DNA of 64,000 nt from Aliiglaciecola sp. LCG003 (lineage in GTDB: Bacteria > Pseudomonadota > Gammaproteobacteria > Enterobacterales > Alteromonadaceae), in assembly GCF_030316135.1 (NCBI RefSeq), contig NZ_CP128185.1, positions 1,364,001 to 1,428,000 on the forward strand, given 5' to 3'. Shown one piece after another: positions 23,827-49,509 of the stretch (positions are counted from its first letter, which is position 1; every line of letters starts with the position of its first letter). The notes beneath the pieces are model-generated. The model was not told the origin of the DNA. It made no database searches and was given only the letters and a program-made list of their open reading frames with translations. The position numbers and the translations under genes are program-made.

Positions 23827-23844
23827 GGGGAGCGTCCATATATG

Positions 23845-24163: not shown

Positions 24164-24177
24164 CCTTAGTTGAGGGG

Positions 24178-24195: not shown

Positions 24196-24336
24196 TTATG
24201 TTTGAAAGTCGGTAGAGGTGCTGATTTTCAAAACAAGTGAGGCGACTTTGAAGACGAATGTCATTAAAAGTCGAAATTGAGGCGAGCTACCGTTGGACAA
24301 CAATAATAATCCGGCAGTGGTTCTCAGGAGGTAAAT

Positions 24337-25161: not shown

Positions 25162-25199
25162 TTCTAAACAGAACACCAAGTTAGGTTAACTATGATAAT

Positions 25200-25226
25200 G
25201 CCACTATACTTTTAATAGATAGTGGC
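25200..25226 (+). other. Hairpin between flagellin 4 and flaG
   Basis: GCCACTAT / ATAGTGGC, perfect 8-bp stem with an 11-base loop and no following T run. It could be a processing or attenuation site that lowers flaG-fliD expression relative to flagellin. Confidence 0.5.
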
Positions 25227-25251
25227 TAATCATTATTTGTGGAGGTGGAAG

Positions 25252-25683: not shown

Positions 25684-25705
25684 ATTAATTTTAAAGAGGG
25701 TCGTC

Positions 25706-28125: not shown

Positions 28126-28202
28126 GGCAGTGCTTTTAATACGTTTAGGGATTATTCCCATACTTGCTTCACTTTTTGAAGCGCATACAGCTAGGATTCA
28201 AC

Positions 28203-29201: not shown

Positions 29202-29212
29202 AGAAGATTAAC

Positions 29213-31071: not shown

Positions 31072-32027
31072 GTCGCATTTTATTGATCCGCATGTTGGAG
31101 ATGGGTGATGTGGCAAGTATTGCCGTGCCTGCCATTCGATACCTACTAAAAAAGTATCCCGATACCAGTATCGATTTACTTACCCGTGAACCAGGCTGCG
31201 AAATACTTAAATTAGCGGCACCTGAGGTGCAAACACTGACACTGGAGAACGATTGGTGGCCAGATAATATTCTGACGGCAATGGAAGCTTTCTTGGGATT
31301 AGCCGAGAAAATTATCGGCCACGAATATCAGAAAATAATTAATCTAGATACGGCTTTTATGCCTTGCTTTTTAGCGCGCTTTTTAAAAGATGCGGGTGAG
31401 CCGGTTGAAGGTAATATGTTGTCTATCTCGGTGCAGCAACTGATAGATCGGGTACACAATCAAAGCTTGCAACCAGAGTACGTAAATAACCAACAAAATT
31501 ACATGCAAAGCACCTATTTTGGTATGTACAAATGGCATACGCCATGGTGGGAAGGTGCGGTTCAACCTGACAAGGGTTACCCCGAATTTTACCTAAAAGC
31601 CTGCTGTGGCTGGACGGATCTCGAGATGGATTGGGATATCGCGGTCCCAATGAAGCAGTCTTCGGGTCGTGGCAACATCAAAAAAGTAACCTTAGCGGTC
31701 TGCTCGTCTGAGTATCAATATCCTCAACAAGATGAATTGACCAGGCTGCTTAAGCAGCAGGGGGTTGAAGTGGCAGTTAATGATCCTAACCAAAGCATTG
31801 CTGAGCAATTAGCGGGGCTAAAATCCAGTGATTTGTTAGTGACGCTGCCTTTAGGAGTATTTGCACTGGCCAATAGCGTCGCGTGTCCTACTTTACTGCT
31901 TTGCGGTCAGGTGGATCCTCGCATGTTAATGCCGGACTATGCTACCGATATGGCAAATGAGCTGCCTGACGCCGCCTCCTTGTGTGAAAGTATTATGTCT
32001 ATTTTTAGTGAGGACCAGCATGACTGA
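31068..32027 (+). CDS. GT9/heptosyltransferase-like protein in the pse operon
   Basis: A protein of 319 aa beginning MSRILLIRMLEMGDVASIAVPAIRYL, which resembles the start of ADP-heptose:LPS heptosyltransferases (ILIIR-GD-x3-PAI). The C-terminal part (SSDLLVTLPLGVFALANSV; PTLLLCGQVDP) fits a GT-B donor-binding half, though degenerate. It overlaps pseF and pseI, so it belongs to the operon. It is not a known step of CMP-Pse synthesis; it may transfer a second sugar or be a Maf-independent flagellin glycosyltransferase. The acceptor is unknown. Confidence 0.6.
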   Translation: MSRILLIRMLEMGDVASIAVPAIRYLLKKYPDTSIDLLTREPGCEILKLAAPEVQTLTLENDWWPDNILTAMEAFLGLAEKIIGHEYQKIINLDTAFMPCFLARFLKDAGEPVEGNMLSISVQQLIDRVHNQSLQPEYVNNQQNYMQSTYFGMYKWHTPWWEGAVQPDKGYPEFYLKACCGWTDLEMDWDIAVPMKQSSGRGNIKKVTLAVCSSEYQYPQQDELTRLLKQQGVEVAVNDPNQSIAEQLAGLKSSDLLVTLPLGVFALANSVACPTLLLCGQVDPRMLMPDYATDMANELPDAASLCESIMSIFSEDQHD

Positions 32028-33081
32028 ATTTTATATTGGTAAGCGCCTGATTGGTTCAAGTCAGCCGCCGTTTATCATTGCCGAGCTAAGTGGTAACCAT
32101 AGTCAGGATTTTTCACTGGCGTGTAAAATGGTTGATGCTGCTGCTCAGGCAGGAGCTCATGCAATTAAATTGCAGACATATACTGCCGACTCGATGACCC
32201 TTAATGTTGCCAGTGATGATTTTGTAATCCAAGAAAAAGACAGTCTTTGGTACGGCGAATCATTACACGGCTTATATGCAAAGGCGGCCACACCCTATGA
32301 GTGGCACAAACCATTATTTGAGCGTGCTAACGCCTTGGGAATGGAGGCCTTCAGTTCTCCTTTTGATGAGGATGCGGTTGATTTCTTAGCTGAGCTGGAT
32401 GTGCCATGTTTTAAAATTGCCTCATTTGAGTTGACCGATTTACCCCTTATCAAGCGGGCTGCCAGTAAAGGCAAGCCGCTAATTATGTCCACTGGCATGG
32501 CTAGTATTAGTGAAATAGAACAAGCTGTTGAGACGGCTAGGGCGCAGGGCTGCAAAGATATAGTGTTATTAAAGTGCACCAGCACTTACCCCGCACTAGC
32601 AAATAACACTAACCTTAACACTATCCCTAATATGCGAGACGCATTTGCTGTGCCCGTTGGATTGTCTGATCATTCCGCTGGAGTGGGCGTATCTGTCGCG
32701 GCAACCGCCTTGGGCGCACCTGTCATAGAAAAGCACTTTGTACTGGACAGAAATGCGGGTGGCGTCGATGCGGCCTTTTCATTAGAGCCGGATGAATTGG
32801 CATCCCTGGTAGTCGAAACCGAGCGTGCTTGGCAAGCAATGGGTTCGGTGGTTTATGGCGGCACGGTTGCGGAAGAAAAATCGAAGTACTATCGCCGTAG
32901 TATTTTCGTAAGCGAAAACATTAAGAAAGGCGAACGGCTGACTAAGCAAAACCTAAGAATCGTTCGTCCTGCTAGTGGCTTGGCTCCCAAGCATTGGGAG
33001 CAAGTGCTAGGCAAAGTGGCCAGCGTGGACATGTCAGCAGGTGAGCCGTTAAGCTGGCAAAGTGTTGATGCTAAAAACTAA
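32020..33081 (+). CDS. pseI: PseI, pseudaminic acid synthase
   Basis: A NeuB-family enzyme (353 aa) condensing phosphoenolpyruvate with the 6-deoxy-sugar to give pseudaminic acid. TIM-barrel signatures: FIIAELSGNHSQDFSLA, AGAHAIKLQTYTADSMT and LSDHSAGVGVSVAA. The C-terminal antifreeze-like SAF domain (residues ~290-350) carries SIFVSENIKKGERLTKQNLR. The ATG at 32020 follows GAGGACC and overlaps the previous gene by 8 bases; earlier in-frame codons are rejected. Confidence 0.95.
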   Translation: MTEFYIGKRLIGSSQPPFIIAELSGNHSQDFSLACKMVDAAAQAGAHAIKLQTYTADSMTLNVASDDFVIQEKDSLWYGESLHGLYAKAATPYEWHKPLFERANALGMEAFSSPFDEDAVDFLAELDVPCFKIASFELTDLPLIKRAASKGKPLIMSTGMASISEIEQAVETARAQGCKDIVLLKCTSTYPALANNTNLNTIPNMRDAFAVPVGLSDHSAGVGVSVAATALGAPVIEKHFVLDRNAGGVDAAFSLEPDELASLVVETERAWQAMGSVVYGGTVAEEKSKYYRRSIFVSENIKKGERLTKQNLRIVRPASGLAPKHWEQVLGKVASVDMSAGEPLSWQSVDAKN

Positions 33082-33083
33082 CT

Positions 33084-34148
33084 ATGTGGCAAACTGATGC
33101 TAGCAAAGTAATGCTCCGTGTGGATGCTTCAAGCCAAATTGGACTGGGGCATTTAATGCGTTGTATTTCCCTGGCTGAGGCATTGACTAAGCAAGGGCTT
33201 AGTTGTCATTTTGCGGTCAATCAACAGGCCGTTGATATTTGTCAATCACGGCCTGATTGGGGTTGGGAGATCAGTGTGGTGCCTTACCTTGATGATACCG
33301 AAAAACAACTTCAATGGTTGCAGCAACAGCTCGAAGCAGGGCATTTTAGCGCTTTGGTATTGGATGGCTACCACTTTGACCAGTCGTTTCGTCAAGCCCT
33401 TAACCAAATCCACTGCTTTCATGTCTGTTTTGATGATACTAATCAATTATCCCAACTGCATACGGATTTAGTTATTAATGGTGCAAGCAATGCTGAAAAG
33501 CTCAACTATCAAAGCACTGCAACAGATGCCGTGCTTTGTTTAGGTGAGCAGTATCGTGTTCTGCGTGGCGAGTTTACTCAGCCTGCCACCTTTACCTTAA
33601 AGGAACGCTCATACCTTACCATTACAATGGGAGGCAGCGATCCTTTCGATTTGACCCTGCCGTTGTTACAGCAACTACAACGAGCAGGCTTCGGCGATAC
33701 TATTCAGCTGATAACTGGAGCGGCGTACCCCGTACTTGCTCAACTGAATGAATTTTTGCAGCAATCTAGATTGAAGGTGAAACATAGCCATAATTGTCAA
33801 AGCATGGCGCAAATATTTAATCAATCGAGACTAGTGATTTCTGCCGCGGGAGGCAGTCAGTTTGAGCTTCAGGCCTGTGGTTGCCCAAGTTTACTCTTGG
33901 TTGTTGCCGACAACCAATTCAATGCCACCAATCAGGCTGCCACTCAGGGCTGGTGCGAATTGTGGGATATGCGCAGGTCAGATAAAGCCGAGCAAATTGA
34001 AGTACTGGTTGAGCATCTTATGATCTTATGGCAACAACAGCAGTTATTAGAGAAAATGAGTCAGCGAGCCTATCAAACACGGGATATACAGGGGGCTCAA
34101 CGGGTCGCAAATGCGATTATTTTGGGTATAGAACAAAATGAACAATAG
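33084..34148 (+). CDS. pseG: PseG, UDP-sugar hydrolase
   Basis: Removes UDP from UDP-2,4-diacetamido-2,4,6-trideoxy-altrose (354 aa). The N-terminus RVDASSQIGLGHLMRCISLA carries the predicted catalytic His23. The C-terminal GT-B-like half has ISAAGGSQFELQACGCPSLL and DNQFNA, which hold the nucleotide. Starts 3 bases after pseI and overlaps pseH by 11 bases. Confidence 0.94.
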   Translation: MWQTDASKVMLRVDASSQIGLGHLMRCISLAEALTKQGLSCHFAVNQQAVDICQSRPDWGWEISVVPYLDDTEKQLQWLQQQLEAGHFSALVLDGYHFDQSFRQALNQIHCFHVCFDDTNQLSQLHTDLVINGASNAEKLNYQSTATDAVLCLGEQYRVLRGEFTQPATFTLKERSYLTITMGGSDPFDLTLPLLQQLQRAGFGDTIQLITGAAYPVLAQLNEFLQQSRLKVKHSHNCQSMAQIFNQSRLVISAAGGSQFELQACGCPSLLLVVADNQFNATNQAATQGWCELWDMRRSDKAEQIEVLVEHLMILWQQQQLLEKMSQRAYQTRDIQGAQRVANAIILGIEQNEQ

Positions 34149-34710
34149 CGATACGGCACCAACCCTAGAAGGCTATGGTGTTAAGCTCAGGCCGGTCGGT
34201 GCTGATGATTTGGAACAATTACGCCAATGGCGCAATGACCCGCAGGTCAGTCAGTTTATGTTGTCGCAAAAGCCGATTAGCGCAGAGCAACAAAGTGCTT
34301 GGTTCGCGCATATTCAGCGCGCCACAAATCAGCTGCACTTTGTGATTGAATATAAAGGTAGTGCAATAGGCAGTGCCAATATCAAAACCCGAGGCGGGGT
34401 AAAATCACTTAGCGGTGCGCACTCCATAGAGCCGGGGTTATATATCGGTGAGCCCAAGTATAGACAAAATATAATTGCATTCTCACCCACTTTATTACTC
34501 AATGATTACTGTTTCGACGTGTTGAAGTGTCAACATCTAAGAGCCATTGTGAAAGCGAACAATCAAGCGGCATTAAACTATAATCAAAAATTAGGTTATC
34601 GAACCGTTCAAAGTGGAGATCTGATTGAAATTGAATTGAATTTCGAGGATTATCAAAGATGTAGTGTTACTTTGAAATCTCTGCTGTCACGCAATAAAAC
34701 TAGAAATTAA
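34138..34710 (+). CDS. pseH: PseH, sugar N4-acetyltransferase
   Basis: A GNAT acyltransferase (190 aa) that acylates the 4-amino group added by PseC. Visible: LRPVGADDLEQLRQWRNDPQVSQFM, typical of RimJ/PseH types, and the acetyl-CoA region with LNDYCFDVLKCQHLRAIV, then NQAALNYNQKLGYR. Given the acyl-carrier genes that follow, the natural donor might be something other than acetyl-CoA; this is speculative. Confidence 0.88.
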   Translation: MNNSDTAPTLEGYGVKLRPVGADDLEQLRQWRNDPQVSQFMLSQKPISAEQQSAWFAHIQRATNQLHFVIEYKGSAIGSANIKTRGGVKSLSGAHSIEPGLYIGEPKYRQNIIAFSPTLLLNDYCFDVLKCQHLRAIVKANNQAALNYNQKLGYRTVQSGDLIEIELNFEDYQRCSVTLKSLLSRNKTRN

Positions 34711-34741
34711 TCGCCATCAAAAACTTTATTCAGGATGTTCT

Positions 34742-34987
34742 ATGAGTCATAACGAAACTTTACGACAGACATTTTCAACTAGTCTAGGCATTGAACTAGA
34801 TGCGATCAATGACCAGCTTAGCTATAACAGTATTCCTCAGTGGGACTCTACTGCTCATATGATCCTTATCGCAGAATTGGAAAATCAATTTAACGTCATG
34901 TTGGATACAGACGATATAATTGATATGAGTTCCGTGGCTAAAGCTAAAGAAATATTAGCCAAATATGATATTCAATTCGATGCTTAA
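34742..34987 (+). CDS. Acyl carrier protein
   Basis: A small acidic protein of 81 aa with the phosphopantetheine attachment motif as QWDSTAHM (Ser36), in place of the usual DSL. The helix after it (ILIAELENQFNVMLDTDDI) is typical of ACP/PCP domains. It overlaps the next SDR by 8 bases and lies one gene before an AMP-forming ligase that could charge it. A dedicated carrier for a glycan acyl group is the likely role. Confidence 0.9.
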   Translation: MSHNETLRQTFSTSLGIELDAINDQLSYNSIPQWDSTAHMILIAELENQFNVMLDTDDIIDMSSVAKAKEILAKYDIQFDA

Positions 34988-35705
34988 TGATAGGATTATT
35001 CTTGTCACAGGTGCCACAGGCGACATCGGTCAAGCAACCGCGATTAAATGTGCCGAACAAGGTGCATTTTTATATTTAGCGGGACGAAATAGCGAAACAC
35101 TCCATGCTCTAAGTGAACGAGTTGGGCAATCAGCAGTTTTAAGTTACGACGTTACTGATGAACGCCAAGTTAAACAGGCCTTTGCCACCATCATGCAGAA
35201 TTCCGGTGAATTGCACGGCGTGGTGAATGCAGCTGGCGTGATGTTTGAAGCCCCCTTTGCAATGACTCGTCTAACCGATCTACAACAGCAACTTAACGTC
35301 AATACTGTATCTGCTTATATTCACTGTCAGTTGGGGGCGCGGCTGATGACCCGCAATCGTCGTGGTAGCCTGATTAATCTATGTTCAGTGGTTGGTGAGC
35401 AAGGCAGCGCTGGACAAAGTGCGTATGCTACAAGTAAAGCCGCTTTGACGGGACTCACTCGCTCTATAGCAAAGGAATTAGGTCATCTCGGAATTAGAGT
35501 AAATGCAGTCACACCTGGTTTTATTGATACCGCTATGACAGCCAATTACCAAGGTGATAAGCGTCAATCAATCATAAATAAAACCATGTTGGGCCGGATT
35601 GGCAATGCCAATGAGGTAGCCGATTTGATTTGTTTTCTATTATCTGAGCAAGCAAGCTACATAACTGGCCAAGTAATCGGTGTGGACGGTGGGTTGAGGC
35701 TTTAA
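34980..35705 (+). CDS. SDR (FabG-like 3-oxoacyl reductase)
   Basis: A short-chain dehydrogenase of 241 aa with TGATGDIG (residues ~10-17), NAAG, the catalytic S-Y-K (SVVGEQGSAGQSAYATSK) and the FabG-like end ITGQVIGVDGGLRL. ATG 34980 is preferred over 34965 because the shorter start gives the usual LNDRIILVTGA beginning. Its place between an ACP and an AMP ligase suggests it reduces an ACP-bound oxoacyl group. Confidence 0.88.
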   Translation: MLNDRIILVTGATGDIGQATAIKCAEQGAFLYLAGRNSETLHALSERVGQSAVLSYDVTDERQVKQAFATIMQNSGELHGVVNAAGVMFEAPFAMTRLTDLQQQLNVNTVSAYIHCQLGARLMTRNRRGSLINLCSVVGEQGSAGQSAYATSKAALTGLTRSIAKELGHLGIRVNAVTPGFIDTAMTANYQGDKRQSIINKTMLGRIGNANEVADLICFLLSEQASYITGQVIGVDGGLRL

Positions 35706-35708
35706 GCT

Positions 35709-37103
35709 ATGTTTTTCAATGACCTATATAAACATTCTGGCAAATTGGCGCTCATCGATGGTAGTGTTAAATTGACTTACTCGCAGCTCGATGAAACCTG
35801 CACGAAATTACAAAGTGAAATTGAAGATCAAATTGGAAAGACTAAGCAATTGATCTTGCTTAAAGCCGCAAATACAAGTGCTACACTGATTGCATATCTG
35901 AGTTGCTTGCGCTTGGGACATGCCATCATGCTAGTTAACCCTGATATAGAAGAGTTGCAGTTAAACCACATTCAGCAAAACTTTAGTGCAAGTTTGCTAG
36001 TCTGTGGCACTGAAAATCAGACTACTAAGTTAATTAAATACCAAAATACTCAGCCAGTGACGCGAGCAGAATTAGCCTTACTATTACCTACATCTGGTTC
36101 TACCGGTGGTGCCAAACATGTTGCACTAAGCTATCAAAACCTTGATGCTAATGCAGAATCGATAGGTCAATATTTGCCTATTGAGGCTAACGATCTTACG
36201 TTGTGTGCATTACCTTTTTTTTATTCTTATGGCTTATCGGTGATCAATAGCCATTTACGTAAAGGAGCTTGTTGCGTTTTCACACGCTCCAGCCCAATGA
36301 CCCGTGAATATTGGCAATTATTTGAACTACACAAAATTTCCAGTTTTGCTGGGGTTCCCTTTGTGTATGACATGTTATTGAGATTGCGTTTTACCCAAAA
36401 GGATTTACCACACTTGCGTTATTTCACTCAAGCAGGTGGTAAGTTAGATGAAGAAAAAGTCAAAATACTAGCTAATTATGCTAGGAGCAATGGCAAACAG
36501 TTTTATGTAATGTATGGACAAACAGAAGCAACAGCAAGAATGGCATATTTGGCACCGGATCAGGTTGCTATCAAACCTAGCGCAATAGGAAAAGCCATAC
36601 CTGGCGGTAAGTTTGAGCTTATAGGGAAACAGGGGCAGGTTATTAGCGCCGTGAACCAAGTAGGCGAGCTCAAGTATTTTGGTCCTAATATTATGTTGGG
36701 ATATGTCAATCAAGATAGCGATTTTGATAGATTGGCACCCCTTCCTTTTTTGATGACAGGGGATCTGGCCTTTCGCGACCAACAAGGTGATTATTTTATT
36801 AGTGGCCGCAAGTCTCGTTTAATTAAATTATTTGGCAAAAGAATCGAATTGGACGAAGTTGAAAGTGAGCTACAGGCACAGGGACTAATTACCTATTGTG
36901 GGGGGAGCGACAAAGGTTTGATTGTTGCTGTTACACAACAAAATTTGACGGCCAAAGACCTTTCTGACGCAGATTTGCAACGCATAGTAGCTGATAAATT
37001 AGCCGTGCATATTAGCGCGGTAGAAGTGAGGCTCTTAACTGAGCTGCCACGAACTGTGGCAGGTAAAAAAGATTACAGTAGCCTATTGAATAGAACTAAG
37101 TGA
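35709..37103 (+). CDS. AMP-forming acyl ligase
   Basis: An ANL-superfamily enzyme of 464 aa, slightly short. It has the P-loop-like LLLPTSGSTGGAKHVALSY (Thr/Ser/Gly-rich), YGQTEATARM, the TGDLAFRDQQGDYF motif and the C-terminal GRKSRLIKLFGKRIELDEVE and PRTVAGKKDY with the catalytic Lys. It should adenylate a carboxylic acid and load it on the neighbouring ACP or CoA. Last gene of the pse operon; a 293-base gap without recognised features follows (37104-37396). Confidence 0.9.
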   Translation: MFFNDLYKHSGKLALIDGSVKLTYSQLDETCTKLQSEIEDQIGKTKQLILLKAANTSATLIAYLSCLRLGHAIMLVNPDIEELQLNHIQQNFSASLLVCGTENQTTKLIKYQNTQPVTRAELALLLPTSGSTGGAKHVALSYQNLDANAESIGQYLPIEANDLTLCALPFFYSYGLSVINSHLRKGACCVFTRSSPMTREYWQLFELHKISSFAGVPFVYDMLLRLRFTQKDLPHLRYFTQAGGKLDEEKVKILANYARSNGKQFYVMYGQTEATARMAYLAPDQVAIKPSAIGKAIPGGKFELIGKQGQVISAVNQVGELKYFGPNIMLGYVNQDSDFDRLAPLPFLMTGDLAFRDQQGDYFISGRKSRLIKLFGKRIELDEVESELQAQGLITYCGGSDKGLIVAVTQQNLTAKDLSDADLQRIVADKLAVHISAVEVRLLTELPRTVAGKKDYSSLLNRTK

Positions 37104-37396
37104 TAGTGATTATGCTGATTCTCAACTTAGCAGTTATTGCTTCTTAGTTTGCCTTGGCCAGCGGATGAATTCAACATTTTGCAGTAACCGTACAGCGGAA
37201 TTTAAATGGCTTGACCACGTCGTGGTGCAAAATGCACAATATATATTAGATTAGCAGGCTCAGTCGCGCTTTTGGTTAGTGAAAAACCGGTTAATTACCT
37301 TGTATTTATCAAGTGAGCGGTTATTAAATTACCCAGATTAAACTTTAGCGAGAGTGTGTCAAATGACAAAATTGCAAATTCTGAAAAGCGGCATAC

Positions 37397-40300
37397 ATGC
37401 TTAAAAATATTCGACTTCACATTGAACAAGATGAAGAAAAACAAGAAATACTAGAAACGCAATTAGCACAGCATATCTATGTTACTCAGCGTGAGAGCAT
37501 TAATGCTTTTCAACGTCAAATACCTAGCCTTGTGCCTATTATCTCTCAGATTAAAAGTCAGAATATTTCATTATTCTGCAACAAGTTCGGTAAATTCAAT
37601 ATAGTAGATTACGGACTTGGGCGAGTGCTATATGGATTTGATCCTGAACAAGAGGTTTTGGAGCAAGCCAATCAATTTTTTGAGCATAGCCCGTATATAA
37701 ATATTTTAGACGATGCGTCTAGTGTTATTGATCAAAACGAGCCTCTTCATAAAGTTCATTTAGATTTTCCGTCATATCAACAATTTGAACAATATTCACC
37801 GCTGCCTGAAAAAGTTGATTTGTTGGTAGTACTAGGTTTGGGCTTGGGTTTTCATATAAAGCACCTGCTGCTCCACAGCGACATAAAATATCTCATCATA
37901 TATGAACCGGAATTACAGTATTTTAGTAGTTCATCGATGGTAACATCTTGGCGCGAGATTTTAGATATAGCGAAGGCAAAAAATACTACTTTGTTTTTTC
38001 AGCTGCAAAAAGACGGCAGAGACATAATTAAAGATGTGGCTGAACTTCAGCAGCATGCTGATGTTAGTGGGTTTTACCTTTATCAACATTACAATAGTCC
38101 AGTGTTCTCATCTTTGAGCTACCAGCTTAAAAATCAGCCTTGGCGTAAGTTGCGTGACCATGGTTTATCATTGAAGACTAGTAGTGCTCGAGGTGAATTT
38201 GAACCTCTTTGGATGCCGCCCATTGTGTTGTCACAATATTCAACTTTGACCTCAGACAACGAAAAGTTTCAAAATAATTTAGCTGCTTTTAAAAAGTATT
38301 TTCCTGATATTTACACTGAGTTCTTCGAATATCAGCCGGAAACGTGGATCCCTGTTGTGTCTGAGTCTGGGCGCTGTAATCTCATTAATAAAAAAACACT
38401 AAATGCTTGGTATGGAAATGATCCTATCGCAGAGGCTAAATTATCGTTTGATTCTTACTCTCAATATCCAAACAAGGATGGATTAGTACTTGGCTATAAG
38501 GGTACTAAGCTACGTCATTATCTACACTACAAATTTGTAATAGAAAGTGAATCTTTATTAGAAAAATTACACGAATCTGAAGGGGCTTTGCCGCAAACAA
38601 TTAAATCGATTATTTTATTTGGTGTTGGGTTGGGTTATCAGCTTGAGGAAATGCAACATATCCATCAAATAGAAAAGCTGTTTTTGTGTGAACCCAATCG
38701 CGATTTTTTCTATGCGTCTTTATTTGCCATAGATTGGGCCAAAATTCTAGATGAAACCGACCAAAAGGGCTATCGAATATATATAAATATCGGCGATGAC
38801 GGGGCACATTTATTCCGGGATCTGTTAAATCAATTTTACGCGATTGGTCCTTATAATCTGGCTCACACATACTTTTATCAAAGCTATTACAATGCTGCTC
38901 TGAATTCGGCAATAGGCCAATTACGTGAGCAATTGCAGATTGTCATTTCGATGGGCGAGTACTTCGATCATGCTTTTTATGGCATCAATCAAACAGTGGA
39001 AGGGCTGAGTCGAGGATATGCCCACTTAACCAGTAATCCGCATAAAAAGCTCAATTTCGAGTCCCAAGAATGCCCGGTTTTTATACTGGGAAATGGTCCT
39101 TCTTTAGATTATTCCATTGAAGTGATAAAAGAGTTTCGAGATCGAGCCATCGTGGTTAGTTGTGGAACATCTTTACAGGTGTTGCATAAACACGGAATTA
39201 CCCCAGATTTTCATGCTGAAATTGAGCAAAACCGTTCGACCTACGATTGGGCTGTAAGGTTAGGTTGTCTTGATTATTTGAAAGAGGTCGTGTTGTTGTC
39301 ATGCAACGGTATTCATCCTGACACCTGTAGCTTGTATAAAGATGTTCTCATTGCCTTTAAGGACGGTGAGTCTTCTACGGTTTCGAATTTGAGAGTGTTG
39401 GGTGAACAAAATTATGCGACGCTGAAGTTTGCTTTCCCAACGGTGAGTAATTTTGCTTTGAATTTGTTTAAGACCCTTGGCTTTAAACAACTTTATTTAT
39501 TCGGTATCGATTTAGGCTTCGTGGACAAAGCTCATCATCACTCAAAGTCATCCGGTTATTACGATGAAACAGGTGCAGCATTGTATGATTATGACGAGAA
39601 AAACAATACTGCGCTAATCGTTCCGGGTAACTTCCGCAAAGTAGTCAACACTAAACATGAATTTAAAGTCTCAAAGGTGGTCATGGAAGATTTATTGAGA
39701 GACTTCGATGGTGACTGTTACAACACCAGTGATGGTGCAAGAATAAGTGCAACCGTGCCCCTTAATATTGATGATTTGCTGATCCTTTCCCAACCATCGG
39801 ACAAAGAGAAAGCTTGCGAAGGGATTATGCAAGAAACATTTCAGAAACCAATGGTAGATGATTATCGTGACCGTTTTTTTACTCATTATGACAAAAATAG
39901 ATTAGCCAAAGAGTTAGCCGTGATAGGCGCAGAAATTTCCAAGGTTCGGGAAGGTGAGGAAGATATTCATTGGTTAATTGATTACTTGAAGAATACTTTG
40001 TTTTCTTCATATGCAGAGAATAAATCCCTGCTGTTCTATTATTTATACGGCACTATAAACTTCGCAAATGCTTTTTTACTTAAATTGTCTTTTGCAAGTG
40101 ACACCTCACAAAACGAAGCGTTACAACAAGCGCTGGATATCGTGTTGAAGAGATTTACACAATTTAGCGACAAAATAAACTCAAGTGATTTTAGCTTCGA
40201 TGTAACCTCATCTTTCAGTGGTTTACGGGAGCGTGAATATTTGCGCAAGCTGCAAAACCCACCGATTATTCCATTGGTCAAAAAGTTTGCTGGGGTCACG

Positions 40301-40906
40301 CAGCATTTTGACTTCGATTTTAGTAATTGGTTTGAAATTGAGACTTCTCGAAACTCCATGCCAGAAAAAGGGATTACTCTGTCTGACGATATAGAACTAC
40401 TCAATAGTATCGCGCTTTCAGAGCAAAAGCAGCTCAGAGTGCTAGGGTTGGTTACTAATGAGTTAAACTGGTCACCGCAATACGATGATTCGGTAATATG
40501 CAGCAAGGTCATCCCGCTACCTTCTTTTTCAACTGATGATCAAGCTATTCGAGCAGGTAGGTTACCAGTGATGAATATGAAAATGTACGCTGTACTGCTT
40601 AAAAAATGCTATTTGTGTACTAACAATCCGCAATGGATTATTCCACGCTTTGATTTTGTCATCGGCAATCAACCTGCTTCAGAGGTATGGTTACAGAGTT
40701 ATCTTGATGCGCTCCCTGCATATGATTATTTCATTCAGTTTCCCACTTATATAGCAATTCCCAGAGATGGTCAGGACGACAGTTTGGTTGATTCGTTAGG
40801 AAATCGAGGGGAATTAATTTGTTCCCGTATTGGGCTTGATAATCTAAGTGCGGGGTTTATGAGCGAAAGTGAGTATCGCAATATAAGCAAAATTTTTATC
40901 GAGTAA
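37397..40906 (+). CDS. maf: Maf-type flagellin glycosyltransferase, extended
   Basis: Motility-associated factor (DUF115/MAF_flag10) of 1169 aa, nearly twice the usual 600-700. The conserved core starts near residue 559 (PVFILGNGPSLDYSI; GITPDFHAEIEQNRS) and extends to about 800 (LFGIDLGFVDKAHHHSKSSG). Maf proteins transfer CMP-activated nonulosonic acids to flagellin Ser/Thr in the cytoplasm. The N-terminal half contains two related segments, about residues 139-188 and 401-450 (VVLGLGLGFHIKHLL and ILFGVGLGYQLEEMQ, each ending W-x-x-IL). This is an internal domain duplication. It stands alone between two gaps without visible sigma-54 site. Confidence 0.92.
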   Translation: MLKNIRLHIEQDEEKQEILETQLAQHIYVTQRESINAFQRQIPSLVPIISQIKSQNISLFCNKFGKFNIVDYGLGRVLYGFDPEQEVLEQANQFFEHSPYINILDDASSVIDQNEPLHKVHLDFPSYQQFEQYSPLPEKVDLLVVLGLGLGFHIKHLLLHSDIKYLIIYEPELQYFSSSSMVTSWREILDIAKAKNTTLFFQLQKDGRDIIKDVAELQQHADVSGFYLYQHYNSPVFSSLSYQLKNQPWRKLRDHGLSLKTSSARGEFEPLWMPPIVLSQYSTLTSDNEKFQNNLAAFKKYFPDIYTEFFEYQPETWIPVVSESGRCNLINKKTLNAWYGNDPIAEAKLSFDSYSQYPNKDGLVLGYKGTKLRHYLHYKFVIESESLLEKLHESEGALPQTIKSIILFGVGLGYQLEEMQHIHQIEKLFLCEPNRDFFYASLFAIDWAKILDETDQKGYRIYINIGDDGAHLFRDLLNQFYAIGPYNLAHTYFYQSYYNAALNSAIGQLREQLQIVISMGEYFDHAFYGINQTVEGLSRGYAHLTSNPHKKLNFESQECPVFILGNGPSLDYSIEVIKEFRDRAIVVSCGTSLQVLHKHGITPDFHAEIEQNRSTYDWAVRLGCLDYLKEVVLLSCNGIHPDTCSLYKDVLIAFKDGESSTVSNLRVLGEQNYATLKFAFPTVSNFALNLFKTLGFKQLYLFGIDLGFVDKAHHHSKSSGYYDETGAALYDYDEKNNTALIVPGNFRKVVNTKHEFKVSKVVMEDLLRDFDGDCYNTSDGARISATVPLNIDDLLILSQPSDKEKACEGIMQETFQKPMVDDYRDRFFTHYDKNRLAKELAVIGAEISKVREGEEDIHWLIDYLKNTLFSSYAENKSLLFYYLYGTINFANAFLLKLSFASDTSQNEALQQALDIVLKRFTQFSDKINSSDFSFDVTSSFSGLREREYLRKLQNPPIIPLVKKFAGVTQHFDFDFSNWFEIETSRNSMPEKGITLSDDIELLNSIALSEQKQLRVLGLVTNELNWSPQYDDSVICSKVIPLPSFSTDDQAIRAGRLPVMNMKMYAVLLKKCYLCTNNPQWIIPRFDFVIGNQPASEVWLQSYLDALPAYDYFIQFPTYIAIPRDGQDDSLVDSLGNRGELICSRIGLDNLSAGFMSESEYRNISKIFIE

Positions 40907-41226
40907 AAGCTGCTACTTACCGGTCGTTTGAATAACGCACTGGTTGAGTCGGTTATTTGTTCGATTGAGTGTGAATAGTGGTTTTGAAAGTGCGGGGGAG
41001 GAGAGTGAATGATATAGTTTGAGGTATTAATTTCACAATATCGCAATATGTGAATTGAGAGAAATAACTATTAAACCAAAGCGTTAATTACCATGTTGAG
41101 AAAAACGGTGCAAAATCATCCAACTGGTTTCAGCTTTTTTATTCAAGTGGGTAGCAGCGTCTGCCGATAAACATCCTGCGTTCTGTCTGCAATTCGGCGG
41201 GCTGAAATTAATGAGGCTCGGTTTTG
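40907..41226 (+). other. Gap between maf and the LuxE-like gene
   Basis: About 320 bases without a supported gene. It holds a sigma-28-like site at 41143-41170 and nothing else recognised. Confidence 0.5.
41143..41170 (+). promoter_or_regulatory. sigma-28-like promoter before LuxE-like gene
   Basis: A perfect -10 GCCGATAA at 41163-41170 with TCAA 16 bases upstream (41143-41146). The -35 is one mismatch and the spacer one base long. It would place the following genes in the late, flagellin-co-expressed class. Confidence 0.5.
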
Positions 41227-42309
41227 ATGTTACATTACACCCAACTACTAACTGAGCTTTTTGCTCAACCGGTTTATCAATTACCGCAAGCTAAAAAAGA
41301 AGCACTATTACTACCTATCTTTGCACAATTGCATCAACACCATCAGCAACATTGTCAACCTTACCGCCATATTACATCGAGTGCATCGGATGACTGGAGA
41401 ACGCTCAATGAGATACCTTATTTAGCGGTACGCTTATTCAAACTCCTAGCGTTAAAAAGTATTGATGACTCCGATGTGTTCAAAACACTTCAATCCTCAG
41501 GAACCACTTCACAAACACCAGCTCGAATTTTTTTGGATAGAGTTACCAGTTCCAATCAGTCAAAAGCATTAGTCAACATATTGCAACATTCAATTGGCAA
41601 ACAGCGTTTGCCAATGCTGATTATTGACAGTCCAGCTATTTTGAAAGATCGCAACAAATTTAGCGCTCGTAGCGCGGGTATTCAAGGTCTAGCGTTTTTC
41701 GGCCGTGACCATACCTATGCTTTAAATGATGATATGCAGCCAGATTGGGATGTAATTGAGCAATTTGTTGATAAATACCCTGATCAACCTGTGTTGCTAT
41801 TTGGTTTTACCTTTATGGTTTGGCAACATTTTATACAGATGGCGACACAGCAGAATAAATATTTAAAGATACCTAAAGGGATTTTACTTCACAGCGGCGG
41901 TTGGAAAAAACTTGAGGCGCAGAAAGTCGATAATCTAACATTTAAAGCGCGCATTAAGGCACATACTGCAATATCTCAAGTAGTGAATTTTTACGGTATG
42001 GCAGAGCAGGTCGGCTCTATCTTTGTCGAATGTAAACAAGGTCATTTACATGCGCCTCTATTGGCTGACATTATAATTCGTGAACCTTATACTCTGGAAG
42101 AATGCACTAACAAGCAAGTCGGTTTGATTCAGGTTTTGTCGGTCTTACCTTTTAGTTATCCCGGGTATAGCATTTTGACTGAAGACATGGGGCAAATACT
42201 CGGTGTCGACGATTGTTGCTGTGGTCGCAAAGGAAAATACTTCGAAGTGCATGGAAGATTACCTAAAACAGAAATACGTGGCTGTAGCGATACCCAAGGT
42301 GATATGTAA
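41227..42309 (+). CDS. LuxE-like acyl-protein synthetase
   Basis: A protein of 360 aa resembling LuxE, which adenylates a fatty acid and passes it to LuxC. Visible: LQSSGTTSQTPARIFLDR (nucleotide loop), LLFGFTFMVWQHFI, ILLHSGGWKKLEAQKV and VNFYGMAEQVGSIFVEC, all LuxE-type. The ATG at 41227 is chosen over the adjoining in-frame TTG. It is 1 base from the LuxC-like gene. There is no luxA/B/D here, so the activity is not bioluminescence; glycan acylation is a better guess from context. Confidence 0.85.
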   Translation: MLHYTQLLTELFAQPVYQLPQAKKEALLLPIFAQLHQHHQQHCQPYRHITSSASDDWRTLNEIPYLAVRLFKLLALKSIDDSDVFKTLQSSGTTSQTPARIFLDRVTSSNQSKALVNILQHSIGKQRLPMLIIDSPAILKDRNKFSARSAGIQGLAFFGRDHTYALNDDMQPDWDVIEQFVDKYPDQPVLLFGFTFMVWQHFIQMATQQNKYLKIPKGILLHSGGWKKLEAQKVDNLTFKARIKAHTAISQVVNFYGMAEQVGSIFVECKQGHLHAPLLADIIIREPYTLEECTNKQVGLIQVLSVLPFSYPGYSILTEDMGQILGVDDCCCGRKGKYFEVHGRLPKTEIRGCSDTQGDM

Positions 42310-42310
42310 A

Positions 42311-43486
42311 ATGAGTAAATTAAAGGTCTTGGTGCCAAGCAGTGGCAGTGAATTGACTGACTGTTTAGAGTCATATCCTATGCAGCCTTTTTGCCCTGAA
42401 ATTTTGGCATTTATTCAGGCTCTTTCTCAGAGCTTGATGACAGACGTGAACTGTAAAAAACTTCCAGAGTTAGTCGCGCTGGCTTTCTGGCTTCGCAGCA
42501 GCCGCATTAAGCAACTTCAATTAGAGCAGCCAAAAGGTATCTCCAAAGCCTTAGGGCTGGTGATACATTTTACCCCTTCGAATGTTGATACCATGTTTAT
42601 TTACAGTTGGGTTTGCTCATTGTTGATGGGCAACAAAAATATTGTTCGAGTTGCCAGCGCAGATTCTGAATCGAAGAGCATGTTATTGGCACAGCTAAAT
42701 CATTTATTCGCCAAATCTGAATTTAAACTACTAGCGAGTAACAATTTGTTTGTCAGTTATGACAAACAATCCAATATTAGTGCTGATTTATCGAAATTAG
42801 CCGACGCAAGGGTTATTTGGGGTGGCGATGATAGTGTTAATGCGATTCGTGCTTTACCGACACCGCCACGATGCAGAGATATAAGTTTTGCCGACAGATA
42901 CTCAGCAACGCTGATAAATGGCAATGCATTGACAGACACCTCTCAAGCCAAAGAACTTGCATTATTACTGTGGCGTGATGTTCAGCCATACGCGCAACAG
43001 GCTTGCTCATCACCCAGAAGCGTTTTTTGGCTAGGTGATAAAACATTGCAATTAGCCGTTTTCGAAATACTAAATAGGCTTGCTGTTGGGCATGGAGCTG
43101 AGATCACACAAGTCAATGATCATCTTGTAACCACTCAGCTATTATTGAGTACTGGTTTGGTTGATACACCGCTTGTCCAACAGCATATTTGCGCTATACC
43201 AGTTCGCCAAATGAATGCTCAATTTTTGGATTGGCATTTGGGCGGGGGATTGTTATTGATTCAGAGCTTAAATAGCATAACAGAACTGACCGGTAGGTTA
43301 GATGCCAAGCTACAAACTTTAAGTTATTGGCAGGTGGACAAAACCGACTTATTAAAGCTTATAGCGGATCCGTCGATAAAAGGTGTAGATAGAGTAGTTC
43401 CAGTTGGACAAGCATTGGATTTTTCCGTCAATTGGGACGGATATGCCTTGTTAAGCCAGCTATCACGATTAGTTGAATTTGGCTAG
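42311..43486 (+). CDS. LuxC-like acyl-CoA reductase
   Basis: A protein of 391 aa of the LuxC family (aldehyde-dehydrogenase fold), which forms a Cys-acyl intermediate and reduces it to aldehyde with NADPH. The predicted nucleophile is Cys232 in YAQQACSSPRSVFW, matching the LuxC QQACSSPQ motif. VIHFTPSNVDTMFIYSW and SLLMGNKNIVRV are further family signatures. The ATG at 42311 directly follows the upstream stop. Its acyl donor would come from the LuxE-like protein. Confidence 0.88.
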   Translation: MSKLKVLVPSSGSELTDCLESYPMQPFCPEILAFIQALSQSLMTDVNCKKLPELVALAFWLRSSRIKQLQLEQPKGISKALGLVIHFTPSNVDTMFIYSWVCSLLMGNKNIVRVASADSESKSMLLAQLNHLFAKSEFKLLASNNLFVSYDKQSNISADLSKLADARVIWGGDDSVNAIRALPTPPRCRDISFADRYSATLINGNALTDTSQAKELALLLWRDVQPYAQQACSSPRSVFWLGDKTLQLAVFEILNRLAVGHGAEITQVNDHLVTTQLLLSTGLVDTPLVQQHICAIPVRQMNAQFLDWHLGGGLLLIQSLNSITELTGRLDAKLQTLSYWQVDKTDLLKLIADPSIKGVDRVVPVGQALDFSVNWDGYALLSQLSRLVEFG

Positions 43487-43508
43487 ATCAACGCTTAGGG
43501 CTGATATT

Positions 43509-44399
43509 TTGAAACAGAAAATCGTCATTTTTGGCGCTGGACAAGCTGGTATCGCAGCGAATAAAAATCTACAAGCGACCTATCAGGTGGTCGCTTTTTG
43601 CGATAATGACCATACGAAGGTCGGCAGTTTCTTAGAGCAGATCCCAGTAATATCACCACAGCAATTAGATGAAATTCAATTCGATCTTATTATGATTGCC
43701 AGTGAGTATTTTGAACAAATCCGTTTGCAACTTGAGCAACAAGAAAGTGTACCAGTGGCTAAAATTCACATACTGGCTGCAACTCAAATAAAACCTTTCC
43801 ATTTTGGTGATAGCGAGAGTGTCAAACAAACGGCAGAACAAATATTGCTGGTTTTATGTGAGACATTGAGCGCCTGCGGTATCAAGTATCATGTGGATGC
43901 GGGAACCTTGTTGGGTATTTACCGAGATAATGCATTGATCCCTTGGGATGATGATTTAGATTTTGCTGTGCCAAGTGACTGTATTGAAATCATTAATGGT
44001 CATCAAGATAGATTACTAGCAGCCTTAGAACGTGTCACCCAACAATCATGGAAAATGACTCAATATTACGCCACACAGCCTTTTGGCTTGGTGAATGTTG
44101 GTGCTACTCGCAGTTTTAAACTCGCACCGATAAATACCGATAGGCAACTTCCATTAATTGACTTTTTTGTTAAGTATTTAGACCAAGATGTGATGGACTA
44201 TGTGATAGCGTCACGAGGTTTCTCAATGCCCAGTAGACATATGCATAGTTTAGACTCTTATACTTTTCGTGGCCAAGATGTTTATATTCCAAGCGATGTT
44301 GAGGGGTATTTAAGTAGCCATTATGGCGACTGGCAAACACCAAAATCGGACTGGGCATTAGATGATGTTCAATCTGCCACTGTGTTTAAGGGCCTTTAA
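43509..44399 (+). CDS. Rossmann-LicD fusion, phosphotransferase-like
   Basis: A two-part protein of 296 aa. Residues 1-94 are a Rossmann-like nucleotide-binding module (KIVIFGAGQAGIAANKN; FCDNDHTKVGSFLEQIPVIS). Residues ~105-296 are a LicD domain with YHVDAGTLLGIYRDNALIPW and the metal-binding DDDLD at 147-151. LicD proteins move phosphocholine or other phosphoalcohols from CDP carriers to glycans. The next gene makes a CDP-alcohol, so the pair forms a donor/transferase unit. Starts at TTG 43509 with TAGGG upstream; a TTG 12 codons earlier is less likely. Confidence 0.85.
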   Translation: MKQKIVIFGAGQAGIAANKNLQATYQVVAFCDNDHTKVGSFLEQIPVISPQQLDEIQFDLIMIASEYFEQIRLQLEQQESVPVAKIHILAATQIKPFHFGDSESVKQTAEQILLVLCETLSACGIKYHVDAGTLLGIYRDNALIPWDDDLDFAVPSDCIEIINGHQDRLLAALERVTQQSWKMTQYYATQPFGLVNVGATRSFKLAPINTDRQLPLIDFFVKYLDQDVMDYVIASRGFSMPSRHMHSLDSYTFRGQDVYIPSDVEGYLSSHYGDWQTPKSDWALDDVQSATVFKGL

Positions 44400-44400
44400 G

Positions 44401-44859
44401 ATGAAGACAATATTAACTTACGGCACCTTTGATTTATTGCATGTTGGCCATCTCAATATGCTTGAGCGTCTCAAATCTATGGGAGATAAGCTTATCGTCG
44501 GGGTATCTACTGATGAATTTAATCAGCAAAAGGGTAAGCAAAGTATATTCTCGTTTGACGAACGCGCCCGGATTATCAATGCTTTGAGCTGTGTGGATGA
44601 AGTAATCCCAGAAAAAAATTGGCAGCAAAAACCTGAAGATATTCACAAGTATAATGTCGATATATTTGGTATCGGTGATGATTGGCAAGGAAAATTCGAT
44701 AGTTTAAATGAATTTTGTGAAGTGCATTATTTGTCCAGAACTAAGGACATTTCATCGACAAGCTTGAAACAAGCACTGTCCAATATTGACAAAGAGTTTA
44801 TCCGCCAAATTAAGGATAATCTCGATCATATGTTCACCATTGTTAAGGCTATGGAATAA
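44401..44859 (+). CDS. tagD: TagD-like glycerol-3-phosphate cytidylyltransferase
   Basis: A small nucleotidyltransferase of 152 aa with YGTFDLLHVGH (HxGH at 14-17) and RTKDISSTSLK (the ISSTxxK motif). FDERARIINALSCVDEVIPE is typical of TagD, which makes CDP-glycerol from CTP and glycerol-3-phosphate. It begins 1 base after the LicD gene. The extension after residue ~130 is predicted helical. Substrate could instead be another phosphoalcohol. Confidence 0.9.
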   Translation: MKTILTYGTFDLLHVGHLNMLERLKSMGDKLIVGVSTDEFNQQKGKQSIFSFDERARIINALSCVDEVIPEKNWQQKPEDIHKYNVDIFGIGDDWQGKFDSLNEFCEVHYLSRTKDISSTSLKQALSNIDKEFIRQIKDNLDHMFTIVKAME

Positions 44860-44920
44860 GCTGAACAAGCTATTTAGTGGAATTTAATTTAGTCATGAAG
44901 TTAAACAGGGTATCTTGAAC

Positions 44921-47212
44921 ATGTCAGAAAGGGTCATGAATTTACGTCAATTTATTCACAATGAAGGCATTAAAACTGTCTCATTCGACGTGTTTGATAC
45001 CATAGTGTTTCGTCGAGTTGCTCGTCCTGTCGAAGTCTTTACTGCAGCATTTGACCATTTCAGTTTGACCAATGAGCTGACGATGAGTGCCGATGAATTC
45101 AAAGAGCTTCGTGTCTATGTTGAGAAGCAAGTCAAACGTCAAGCCATCCATGGTGAGGTATCCCTTGAGGATATATTCTCCAGTATGCCGTTCTCTTTAG
45201 AGGTGGTTGATGGTTTAAAACAAGCAGAACTGGATATTGAAAAAAGGCTGGGATTTATTTATCAGCCTATGAATGATTTTATTGCCGCCTTAGTTGAACA
45301 AGGGATTCAAGTTTTTTTGGTGTCAGATATGTATTTAAGTAAGGCCCAAATACGGCAGTGCTTCTTTGCTGATTATCCATTGCTGCAATCTTTACCTCTG
45401 CATGTTTCGTCAGAGTATAAGTTAAATAAGTCATCGGGATTGATGTTCGACCACTTGGCTGAGCAATATAGTATTGAGAAGTCCAGTTGGCTGCATTTAG
45501 GTGACAATTTGCTATCAGATTTTACGATGCCCAAGCAAAAACAGTTGCTTGCGCAATGTTTGTCAACTGAGTTGGATGTGAATAGCATTTTTCACCTTGA
45601 AAGCACACTATTCCCTGAGAGCCAGAGCTTCAACTCTGCTCGTATGCTCGCCTCTACACATTTCCAAGCTCAGTCTGATGCAGTTGCATTTAATATTGGA
45701 TCACTTATTTGGGGGCCTATACTATTTTCTTTTACTGATTGGGTAATCGATCAAACCATAAAAGCGAAAAGTTCTTGCATATTATGCCTAATGCGCGAAG
45801 CAGAAGTATTTGCTCCTCTGATTGAGAATCGTCTGCAACAACGTAATTTAACCGATATCGTAGTTAAGAAGCTTTATGCATCACGAAAATCTACTTTTTG
45901 GCCTGCTATCGATACTCAACACGAATCCTGGTTTGAAGATCTCATTTATGTGCTAGTGCAAAGAAGAGGTTACACGGTAGATGACTTTTATCGAGATTTT
46001 TTGCTGTCCCATGACGAAGTGCATTCTGCTCATAAGAACGTTTTGGTCCGAGACACAGATGGCTTGTTCTTTCAGGGTCAAAACTTGTTAAAACTACTAA
46101 CAGACGCCGCTCGCGCAAATAGCCAACAATTAAAAGATTATGTGCATTTGCAAAGAGCGCTTTTCAGCCGTTACTTTACTCATCACATTGGTGAGAGTCT
46201 TGATACCTGTACAGTCGTTGATCTAGGCAATGGCGGCACCATTCAACATCAGATAGAAGCTATTCTGAATTGTAAAAGTGCAGGCAATTTGCTGTTTTAT
46301 TCATCCGAGAGGATTTATCGTTTCTCTGCGTCCACGCGATACAGCAGTTTTATCAATGCCCATTCAGATAGCCGCAATTTACGTCAGCTTTTATCCCGTT
46401 CGCCAGAATGTATCGAACCGTTTTTAGTCGGTGACTGTGGAACAACTTTGGGCTATCAAGATGACACAACCGGTACACCAATTCTAGCCGCACATTTACC
46501 AGATAATTCAGCTCCCGTGAACGATTTTCTAAATGGGGTTGTAGTTTATTTTAGGCTACATCATCAACTTGGATTTGGTCAGATCAGTACCAAACAAATT
46601 ATTCCCATTTTGTATCGCTATATTCAGCTTCCTAGCAAATTAGAAGCACAGCTTTTTACGCGAATTTTGCATCAGGATAACTTTGGTTCAAATGATGCCT
46701 ATCCGATTATCACTGATCATCAGCGAGAAGAAATTGAACAATGGGGACTAGCCGATTTTTATCAAGAATTTTGCCAATACCCAAAGGTTAAAGTTGGGAA
46801 AATCCATTGGCCACAGGCAGTAATTACGCTGATCTCTGAGCGATTTCTGGCCAGACAATTAGGTTTAATGTCAATGGATACTGACAGTGATGTGTTGAAT
46901 TTGGTCGAACGTTTACTTGAGCATAAATGGCGCCGTTTTTCGGTCTATGGTGCAGGGTTGTTTTTCGAAAAATTATTACCTTATTTACAAAAAAATAATC
47001 TACAGATTGACTATTTGATTGACCGCAAGGCTGACATTTCAGGCCCTTATAACGTTGCTGGTTTCGAAGTCGTTAGCCTAGATACTGCCTTAGCTGGTGG
47101 TACTGATAAAGTTCTAATTTCTTCTTATGCATTTAAGGATGAAATAGCTAGAAACATTTATGAACAGTCTATTATGCACAATTCACACGCTATCGACGTG
47201 TTAAGCCTATAA
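44921..47212 (+). CDS. HAD-superfamily protein with C-terminal Rossmann module
   Basis: A large protein of 763 aa. The HAD-fold N-terminus has SFDVFDTIVFRR (nucleophile Asp23, Phe in place of the second Asp), VFLVSDMYLSK and WLHLGDNLLSDF. The middle resembles the long HAD-related proteins found in surface polysaccharide loci. Residues ~665-763 form a Rossmann-like module (SVYGAGLFFEKLLPYLQ; DYLIDRKAD). The exact reaction is unknown; a sugar phosphatase or glycosyl-processing role fits the context. The ATG at 44921 follows ACAGGG. Confidence 0.75.
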   Translation: MSERVMNLRQFIHNEGIKTVSFDVFDTIVFRRVARPVEVFTAAFDHFSLTNELTMSADEFKELRVYVEKQVKRQAIHGEVSLEDIFSSMPFSLEVVDGLKQAELDIEKRLGFIYQPMNDFIAALVEQGIQVFLVSDMYLSKAQIRQCFFADYPLLQSLPLHVSSEYKLNKSSGLMFDHLAEQYSIEKSSWLHLGDNLLSDFTMPKQKQLLAQCLSTELDVNSIFHLESTLFPESQSFNSARMLASTHFQAQSDAVAFNIGSLIWGPILFSFTDWVIDQTIKAKSSCILCLMREAEVFAPLIENRLQQRNLTDIVVKKLYASRKSTFWPAIDTQHESWFEDLIYVLVQRRGYTVDDFYRDFLLSHDEVHSAHKNVLVRDTDGLFFQGQNLLKLLTDAARANSQQLKDYVHLQRALFSRYFTHHIGESLDTCTVVDLGNGGTIQHQIEAILNCKSAGNLLFYSSERIYRFSASTRYSSFINAHSDSRNLRQLLSRSPECIEPFLVGDCGTTLGYQDDTTGTPILAAHLPDNSAPVNDFLNGVVVYFRLHHQLGFGQISTKQIIPILYRYIQLPSKLEAQLFTRILHQDNFGSNDAYPIITDHQREEIEQWGLADFYQEFCQYPKVKVGKIHWPQAVITLISERFLARQLGLMSMDTDSDVLNLVERLLEHKWRRFSVYGAGLFFEKLLPYLQKNNLQIDYLIDRKADISGPYNVAGFEVVSLDTALAGGTDKVLISSYAFKDEIARNIYEQSIMHNSHAIDVLSL

Positions 47213-47255
47213 CAACAAGGTGATTGCATGTGCCAGACTAACTTGGACCGTTAAA

Positions 47256-49499: not shown

Positions 49500-49509
49500 G
49501 AGGTAAAAG

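Follow-up and report, generated by a model that had tools for sequence, protein, structure and literature searches.

In a stretch of 64,000 nucleotides from Aliiglaciecola sp. LCG003 (Alteromonadaceae; contig NZ_CP128185.1, positions 1,364,001 to 1,428,000; hereafter the window), a pseudaminic acid (pse) operon downstream of flagellin genes is joined by genes for an acyl carrier protein (ACP), a FabG-like short-chain dehydrogenase/reductase (SDR), an AMP-forming acid ligase, a LuxE-like acyl-protein synthetase and a LuxC-like acyl reductase (table 1). To this gene set belongs the gene of a PseH-like GNAT just upstream of the ACP. We put forward that the five genes and the preceding GNAT constitute an acyl-donor cassette that is portable and has here been joined to the pse operon, with 2,4-dihydroxybutyryl as the likeliest group, a reading to which, taken as a whole, we give an even chance. 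Its narrower part, that the cassette is the donor module for the GNAT, we consider fairly likely.

The GNAT Switches with the Cassette

Pse operons with and without the cassette were compared. The cassette-free set consisted of 20 fetched pse operons of the same family, drawn from 84 Maf-positive, LuxE-negative genomes (50 searched, 20 fetched), plus that of genome G050. A GNAT of the window type is found in 35 of 35 cassette operons and in 0 of 21 cassette-free ones, a count in which the 6 of 21 cassette-free operons that have no detectable GNAT, and stand outside the GNAT tree, are scored as lacking the window type. Identity to the window GNAT is 34-65% in cassette operons and 24-31% in cassette-free ones; for PseI and PseB the two kinds of operon show similar conservation. 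A single branch of the GNAT tree separates 37 cassette rows from the 15 others (one change; SH-like approximate likelihood ratio test, SH-aLRT, 97). The PseI tree, in turn, requires 12 changes (35 versus 21 rows), and a single cassette clade is rejected by the approximately unbiased test (p-AU 8e-68). Both are quick trees, from which six duplicate loci (L004, L005, L007, L008, L012, L013) and 17 others (L139-L155) were left out; L079, L094 and L102, and for PseI also L003 and L106, drop from the respective tree because PseI or the GNAT is missing. All five independent supported switches of the GNAT with the cassette agree, with a sign test (p 0.0625) that five switches cannot bring to 0.05. 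Since the GNAT switches with the cassette and PseI does not, the acyl donor that the GNAT would use to N-acylate a pseudaminic acid precursor is probably a product of the cassette. Three cassette-free operons read in detail (L114, L121, L128) carry another GNAT, AMP ligase and SDR, and L121 also an ACP-like open reading frame (ORF).

The GNAT itself is like the N-acetyltransferase PseH in fold and in pathway position. Its best sequence match among solved structures is PseH 4xpk (E 8.5e-11), the second Foldseek match of its predicted model is PseH 4ri1, and within its own genome it is the best and sole strong PseH-like match (64.8 bits; next 29.2). It departs from PseH in scoring 64.9 bits against TIGR03585 (PseH), below the cut-off of 93.1, and in sitting on the cassette-bound branch.

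Conservation of the Gene Set in the Family

Among 196 genomes sampled from the family, LuxE scores above its cut-off in 51, the window genome included, and about 19.5 kb around LuxE were read in all 50 others. ACP, ligase, LuxE and LuxC lie together in one such stretch in 49 of the 51 (48 of 50 without the window), and PseI and the window-type GNAT are also there in 45 of 51 (44 of 50 without the window). A window-type GNAT accompanies the ACP, ligase, LuxE and LuxC in 45 of the 50 other genomes, an SDR of at least 36% identity is present in 41 of them and Maf in 16. A LuxC match of at least 49 bits is found in 50 of the 51 LuxE-bearing genomes, the exception being G022. The usual order is PseB-C-F-(GT9)-I-G-GNAT-ACP-SDR-ligase-LuxE-LuxC; the cassette keeps its place behind pseG, whereas the genes after LuxC vary. 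In two genomes a single protein combines ligase and LuxE (L075:8838-11471, 877 amino acids; L076:6470-9277, 935 amino acids). Three of the 49 family cassettes have neither pse genes nor GNAT in the stretch read, one of them (G029) on a contig of 19.6 kb.

A preliminary description of this DNA had proposed co-occurrence with maf across genomes as a check, and the association is borne out: Maf is matched in 50 of 51 LuxE-bearing genomes and in 84 of 145 others of the family (Fisher p 4.5e-9, a generous value, the genomes being related and the Maf match of G039 weak). A sample of the class, 369 genomes, includes 7 with LuxE above the cut-off; two belong to this family, and the cassette is found in two of the remaining five, one with pse genes.

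Several candidates were set aside. Genome-wide LuxC counts with PF05893 were not used, 148 of 196 family genomes matching but only 51 at 49 bits or more, and the rest were taken as aldehyde dehydrogenases. The LuxE matches of G020, G022, G272, G389, G418 and G292 are not this cassette. An apparent GNAT-ACP fusion in L094 (a 339-amino-acid ORF) was rejected, its upstream part reading as an out-of-frame extension. The pse operon of G050 (L093) has a LuxC-like gene (28% identity) with Maf after it; LuxE and ACP were not detected there.

Enzyme Identities and Catalytic Residues

The LuxC-like and LuxE-like proteins belong to the wide families PF05893 and PF04443 by the Pfam cut-offs and by their catalytic cysteines. 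The best start for LuxC is the ATG at 42311, which numbers the catalytic cysteine as Cys232, as the preliminary description had it. In an alignment with Photobacterium LuxC (7xc6) this residue falls on the QQAC stretch, and it is invariant, 39 of 39, among the cassette LuxCs. The PF05893 match of the window LuxC covers profile positions 88-247 of 401 only; its predicted structure, built from 12 sequences (predicted local distance difference test, pLDDT, 83.6), nevertheless has the LuxC of 7xc6 as best Foldseek match (E 2.8e-16, TM-score 0.69 by query length), and the window LuxE matches the LuxE of 7xc6 in sequence (E 1.9e-10). Invariant as well are SSGT 91-94 and the C-terminal Cys354 of LuxE (40 of 40 cassette copies), Ser36 of the ACP in a WDS motif (40 of 40), TSG 128-130 and Lys453 of the ligase (38 of 38) and Ser141, Tyr154 and Lys158 of the SDR (33 of 33). 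Cys354 presumably plays the part it has in lux LuxE, and the LuxC cysteine apart, which was aligned with 7xc6, we take these residues to be catalytic as in their families.

Compared with the lux fatty acid reductase LuxC-LuxE (7xc6), folds and catalytic residues are alike. In contrast to bioluminescence lux systems, no luciferase stands alongside, and LuxC has 391 amino acids here versus 477 in 7xc6. Both LuxC and LuxE fall far short of the NCBIfam lux equivalog cut-offs (41.1 versus 750 and 51.9 versus 550 bits).

The Locus in the Window

Table 1. Genes of the pse operon and the cassette in the window, with the evidence for each assignment.
Feature	Coordinates	Strand	Basis
PseB	28164-29201	+	Pfam (Polysacc_synt_2) and gene order
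PseC	29213-30376	+	Pfam (DegT) and gene order
PseF	30373-31071	+	Pfam (CTP_transf_3) and gene order
GT9-like ORF	31068-32027	+	without Pfam match
PseI	31939-33081	+	Pfam (NeuB+SAF) and gene order
PseG-like	33084-34148	+	weak: Glyco_tran_28_C 20.2 bits, below cut-off 22; gene order
Pseudaminic acid core genes, whole block	28164-34148	+	
PseH-like GNAT	34138-34710	+	PF13302
Acyl carrier protein (ACP)	34742-34987	+	PF00550 21.6 bits, barely above cut-off 20.8
FabG-like SDR	34965-35705	+	PF13561 205 bits
AMP-forming acid ligase	35709-37103	+	PF00501 165.5 bits
Maf flagellin glycosyltransferase	37397-40906	+	PF20157 and PF01973
LuxE-like acyl-protein synthetase	41224-42309	+	PF04443 161.6 bits, cut-off 24.9
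LuxC-like acyl reductase, 391 amino acids from ATG 42311	42311-43486	+	PF05893 108 bits, cut-off 21

In the window the pse operon runs into GNAT, ACP, SDR, AMP ligase, Maf, LuxE and LuxC, in this order. Pfam searches thus place the ACP, SDR and ligase at the end of the pse operon and the LuxE-like and LuxC-like genes after Maf, just as first described. The absence of luciferase genes from the locus holds too, the sole Bac_luciferase-family match of the genome (140 bits) lying 530 kb before the window. Within this cassette Maf is a neighbour that was inserted, for the order ligase-Maf-LuxE, present in the window, recurs in just 2 of the other 50 LuxE-bearing genomes. Upstream, at 18482-27169, are FlaG, FliD and three flagellins, with an IS110-type transposase between flagellin genes (22408-23433). 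Promoter-like sites in 34600-44000 show no excess (23 versus 25.6 in shuffles) and terminator-like sites number 15 versus 7.6; no site is used as an argument.

The Set Outside Flagellin Loci

Flagellar loci are not the only places where the set occurs. LuxE is matched in 35 plasmid records, five of which were opened. On a plasmid of Deinococcus sp. NW-56, from a genus not known to have flagella, ACP-SDR-ligase-LuxE-LuxC lies among glycosyltransferase genes, with a PglD-like acyltransferase next in line, and a Ponticoccus plasmid has ACP-SDR-ligase-LuxE with LuxC nearby on the opposite strand. Rhizobium presents a split version of the set with transketolase halves and an aminotransferase alongside, and in Nonomuraea the five genes lie near PseB- and PseC-like ORFs. 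The occurrence among Deinococcus glycosyltransferase genes identifies the cassette, as far as gene content can tell, as a portable acyl module; the terminal acyltransferase differs from one context to another, which is what a donor module would lead one to expect. A Salmonella plasmid was rejected as a carrier of the same cassette, its LuxE being different (28%) and its LuxC fused to an AMP-binding domain. It bears another luciferase-free LuxC/LuxE set (L138:8419-14177), made up of a LuxE-like protein, the LuxC/AMP-binding fusion, a phenylacetate-CoA-ligase-like protein and a GNAT.

A Possible Pathway and the Identity of the Acyl Group

The pathway that we infer, its reactions, acyl group and attachment site alike, would run as follows. 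LuxE would use ATP to activate a carboxyl of a small (di)acid and pass the acyl to the LuxC cysteine, and LuxC would reduce it to an aldehyde, which the SDR, or another reductase, would turn into a hydroxy acid. The AMP ligase would then load this acid onto the dedicated ACP, from which the PseH-like GNAT would move the acyl to the 4-amino group of the UDP-sugar precursor (later N-7 of pseudaminic acid); Maf would attach the finished sugar to flagellin.

The logic resembles that of the wbeKLMNO/rfbKLMNO set of Vibrio cholerae O1, which has been proposed to make 2,4-dihydroxybutyrate (3-deoxy-tetronate) and to N-acylate an amino sugar with it, there perosamine of the O-antigen. The set reportedly comprises an ACP, a ligase, an alcohol dehydrogenase, a LuxC/LuxE-like protein and an acyltransferase. 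The dehydrogenase there is of the iron type and the acyltransferase a different one; in the window we find an SDR instead of the former. Published descriptions give the O1 perosamine as N-acylated with tetronate (PMC3441752), RfbN as bearing a LuxE domain (PMC4772473) and WbeL as a protein of 471 amino acids with an ATP-binding domain (PMC3441752, PMC4772473). By analogy, 2,4-dihydroxybutyryl (3-deoxy-tetronyl, from malate) is our tentative candidate for the acyl group, and it may well prove to be another.

Masses offer a further parallel. Pse5Ac plus C4H6O3 computes to 376.148 Da, and the flagellin of Aeromonas piscicola AH-3, the one cassette-bearing strain known to us with a measured flagellin, is reported to carry a pseudaminic derivative of 376.14 Da, which is retained when the outer glycan is lost by mutation of fgi-1; the glycan is said to end in an unknown unit of 102 Da (PMC7874193). 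The same paper gives strain AH-1 as an example of the small group I or III islands (PMC7874193), and the flagellin of A. caviae is reported with Pse5Ac7Ac9Ac. Full-text searching, which mostly does not reach subscription papers, returned nothing that links pseudaminic acid with tetronate; for dihydroxybutyryl and flagellin two papers matched, unrelated by title and the start of the abstract. A bolder and more doubtful proposal is that a mobile GNAT-ACP-SDR-ligase-LuxE-LuxC module, borrowed from O-antigen or exopolysaccharide chemistry, swaps the N-acetyl of pseudaminic acid for 2,4-dihydroxybutyryl via LuxE/LuxC reduction of malate. The family would thus have cassette-determined pseudaminic chemotypes, and the module would explain the 376 Da sugar of Aeromonas and perhaps its 102 Da cap.

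A number of observations weigh against the acyl-donor reading or its chemistry. The GNAT tree has long branches, and the LuxC model falls below a pLDDT of 50 at 233-238, the stretch around the catalytic cysteine. An SDR of at least 36% identity is missing from 7 of the 49 cassettes; an iron alcohol dehydrogenase, considered as a stand-in, was rejected, since in 10 genomes, the 7 SDR-less ones among them, the contig holds none up to about 85 kb from LuxC. The likeness to V. cholerae O1 is drawn from descriptions and not from protein sequences. The mass of the sugar is tied to the five genes by inference, and the mass itself is ambiguous: C4H6O3 fits O-methylglyceryl too, and two lactyl groups, hydroxybutyryl plus glycolyl, glyceryl plus propionyl, and formyl plus dimethylglyceryl are isobars at 376.148. 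Moreover, a figure legend in the AH-1 paper names a "376 Da sugar", though the AH-1 glycan is reported there as 403 Da.

If the acyl-donor reading is true, the small-acyl route gives a luciferase-free LuxC/LuxE pair a chemical role, the masses of 376 Da and 102 Da on Aeromonas flagellin acquire a candidate structure, and the type of pseudaminic acid becomes predictable from gene content. In the island descriptions cited here, the cassette has so far been listed as "fatty acid" genes, with a lipid sugar suggested.

Alternative Explanations

In an alternative scenario the cassette serves not pseudaminic acid but another amino sugar of a long glycan, for whose synthesis the genes lie further downstream in the island. 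Outside pse operons the set does sit with other sugar genes (glycosyltransferases and a PglD-like acyltransferase in Deinococcus, an aminotransferase in Rhizobium), a large sugar-modifying block follows the cassette in the window, and the AH-3 glycan is described as holding, apart from the 376 Da pseudaminic acid, a unit of 102 Da at its end. Yet the co-switching of GNAT and cassette would go unexplained, as would the fixed place behind pseG while the genes after LuxC vary, and we consider this scenario unlikely. It could also be that the GNAT is an ordinary PseH using acetyl-CoA, which travels with a cassette of unrelated product merely as its neighbour, given that recombination replaces adjacent genes together and that the GNAT scores best against PseH. 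That score nevertheless stays below the PseH cut-off, and PseG, adjacent on the other side, occurs in both operon kinds (presence was compared, not a tree), which makes a mere neighbour distinctly unlikely in our judgement.

The remaining alternatives concern the product. The "liposugar" suggested in two papers (PMC4875605, PMC7874193), a sugar onto which an activated long-chain fatty acid is put, accords with LuxC, LuxE, ACP and FabG being fatty-acid-type families. The cassette, however, has no ketosynthase, and a long chain should show up by mass, whereas the account of the AH-3 glycan gives the 376 Da pseudaminic acid and the 102 Da unit and no long acyl mass; a liposugar is thus very unlikely. 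In the preliminary description it was suggested that the five genes could make, reduce and transfer an unusual acyl or aldehyde group. What stands is one functional set with the pse operon that, judging by the conserved sets and the co-switching GNAT, probably provides an unusual acyl group for pseudaminic acid; for an aldehyde put onto the filament we found no evidence. Intact catalytic cysteines in LuxC and LuxE and the fatty acid reductase LuxC as best structural match of the LuxC model would suit a route in which the aldehyde itself becomes attached to pseudaminic acid or the filament. Such a route would render the ACP, the AMP ligase and the switching GNAT superfluous, and beside LuxC we recognised no aldehyde-capturing gene, so that it appears highly improbable.

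Neighbouring Sugar Genes

The region after LuxC is rich in sugar-modifying genes. At 43473-44859 a LicD-type phosphotransferase adjoins a TagD-like glycerol-3-phosphate cytidylyltransferase, a pair that recurs after LuxC in several relatives and suggests a possible phosphoglycerol decoration of the glycan. Within 43473-50799 the LicD-like, HAD-like and methyltransferase ORFs and an ORF of 429 amino acids seem, from their translations compared by eye, to share a terminal Rossmann-like nucleotide-binding module. Further on, 53936-62877 holds an E1 alpha/beta-like pair, split transketolase halves (56687-57526 and 57523-58452), a zinc-binding-type methyltransferase, an FkbM methyltransferase and SDRs. 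The Dickeya LuxE cluster is described with the same kinds of parts (tktA, tktB, fkbM, fabG), and transketolase-like ORFs also lie near the cassette in four loci of our set (L095, L100, L102, L136).

Comparison with Known Islands

The novelty implied by the preliminary description, whose author knew of no LuxCE route described on flagellin, is not supported: the same five genes are already in print. They are reported as acp, 3-oxoacyl-ACP reductase, AMP-dependent synthetase, luxE and luxC in the group II flagellin glycosylation islands of 98 Aeromonas strains (PMC7874193), as LuxE, LuxC, ACP, FabG and CaiC in flagellin islands of Enterobacteriaceae (PMC4875605), and as the same gene kinds (ACP, FabG, CoA-type ligase, LuxE, LuxC) in the flagellin island of Dickeya zeae EC2 (PMC7575072). 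The gene association is therefore already known; what is new here is the family-wide conservation of the gene set, the co-switching of the GNAT and the parallel with tetronate and the masses.

The Dickeya cluster has tktA-tktB and an aminotransferase (VioA) in place of pse genes. Like the window, the Aeromonas group II island combines pse genes, the acp-to-luxC set, a linked Maf (maf-2) and variable sugar genes after luxC. As in that group, the five genes lie together with pse genes in the window, and polar flagellin genes (the flagellins, FlaG and FliD) are nearby. In Aeromonas AH-3 the set is flanked by pseBC on one side and pseHFGI on the other, and the conserved GT-2 glycosyltransferase gene fgi-1 comes directly after luxC; in the window, by contrast, Maf is inside the cassette and the gene after LuxC encodes a Rossmann and LicD-like protein.

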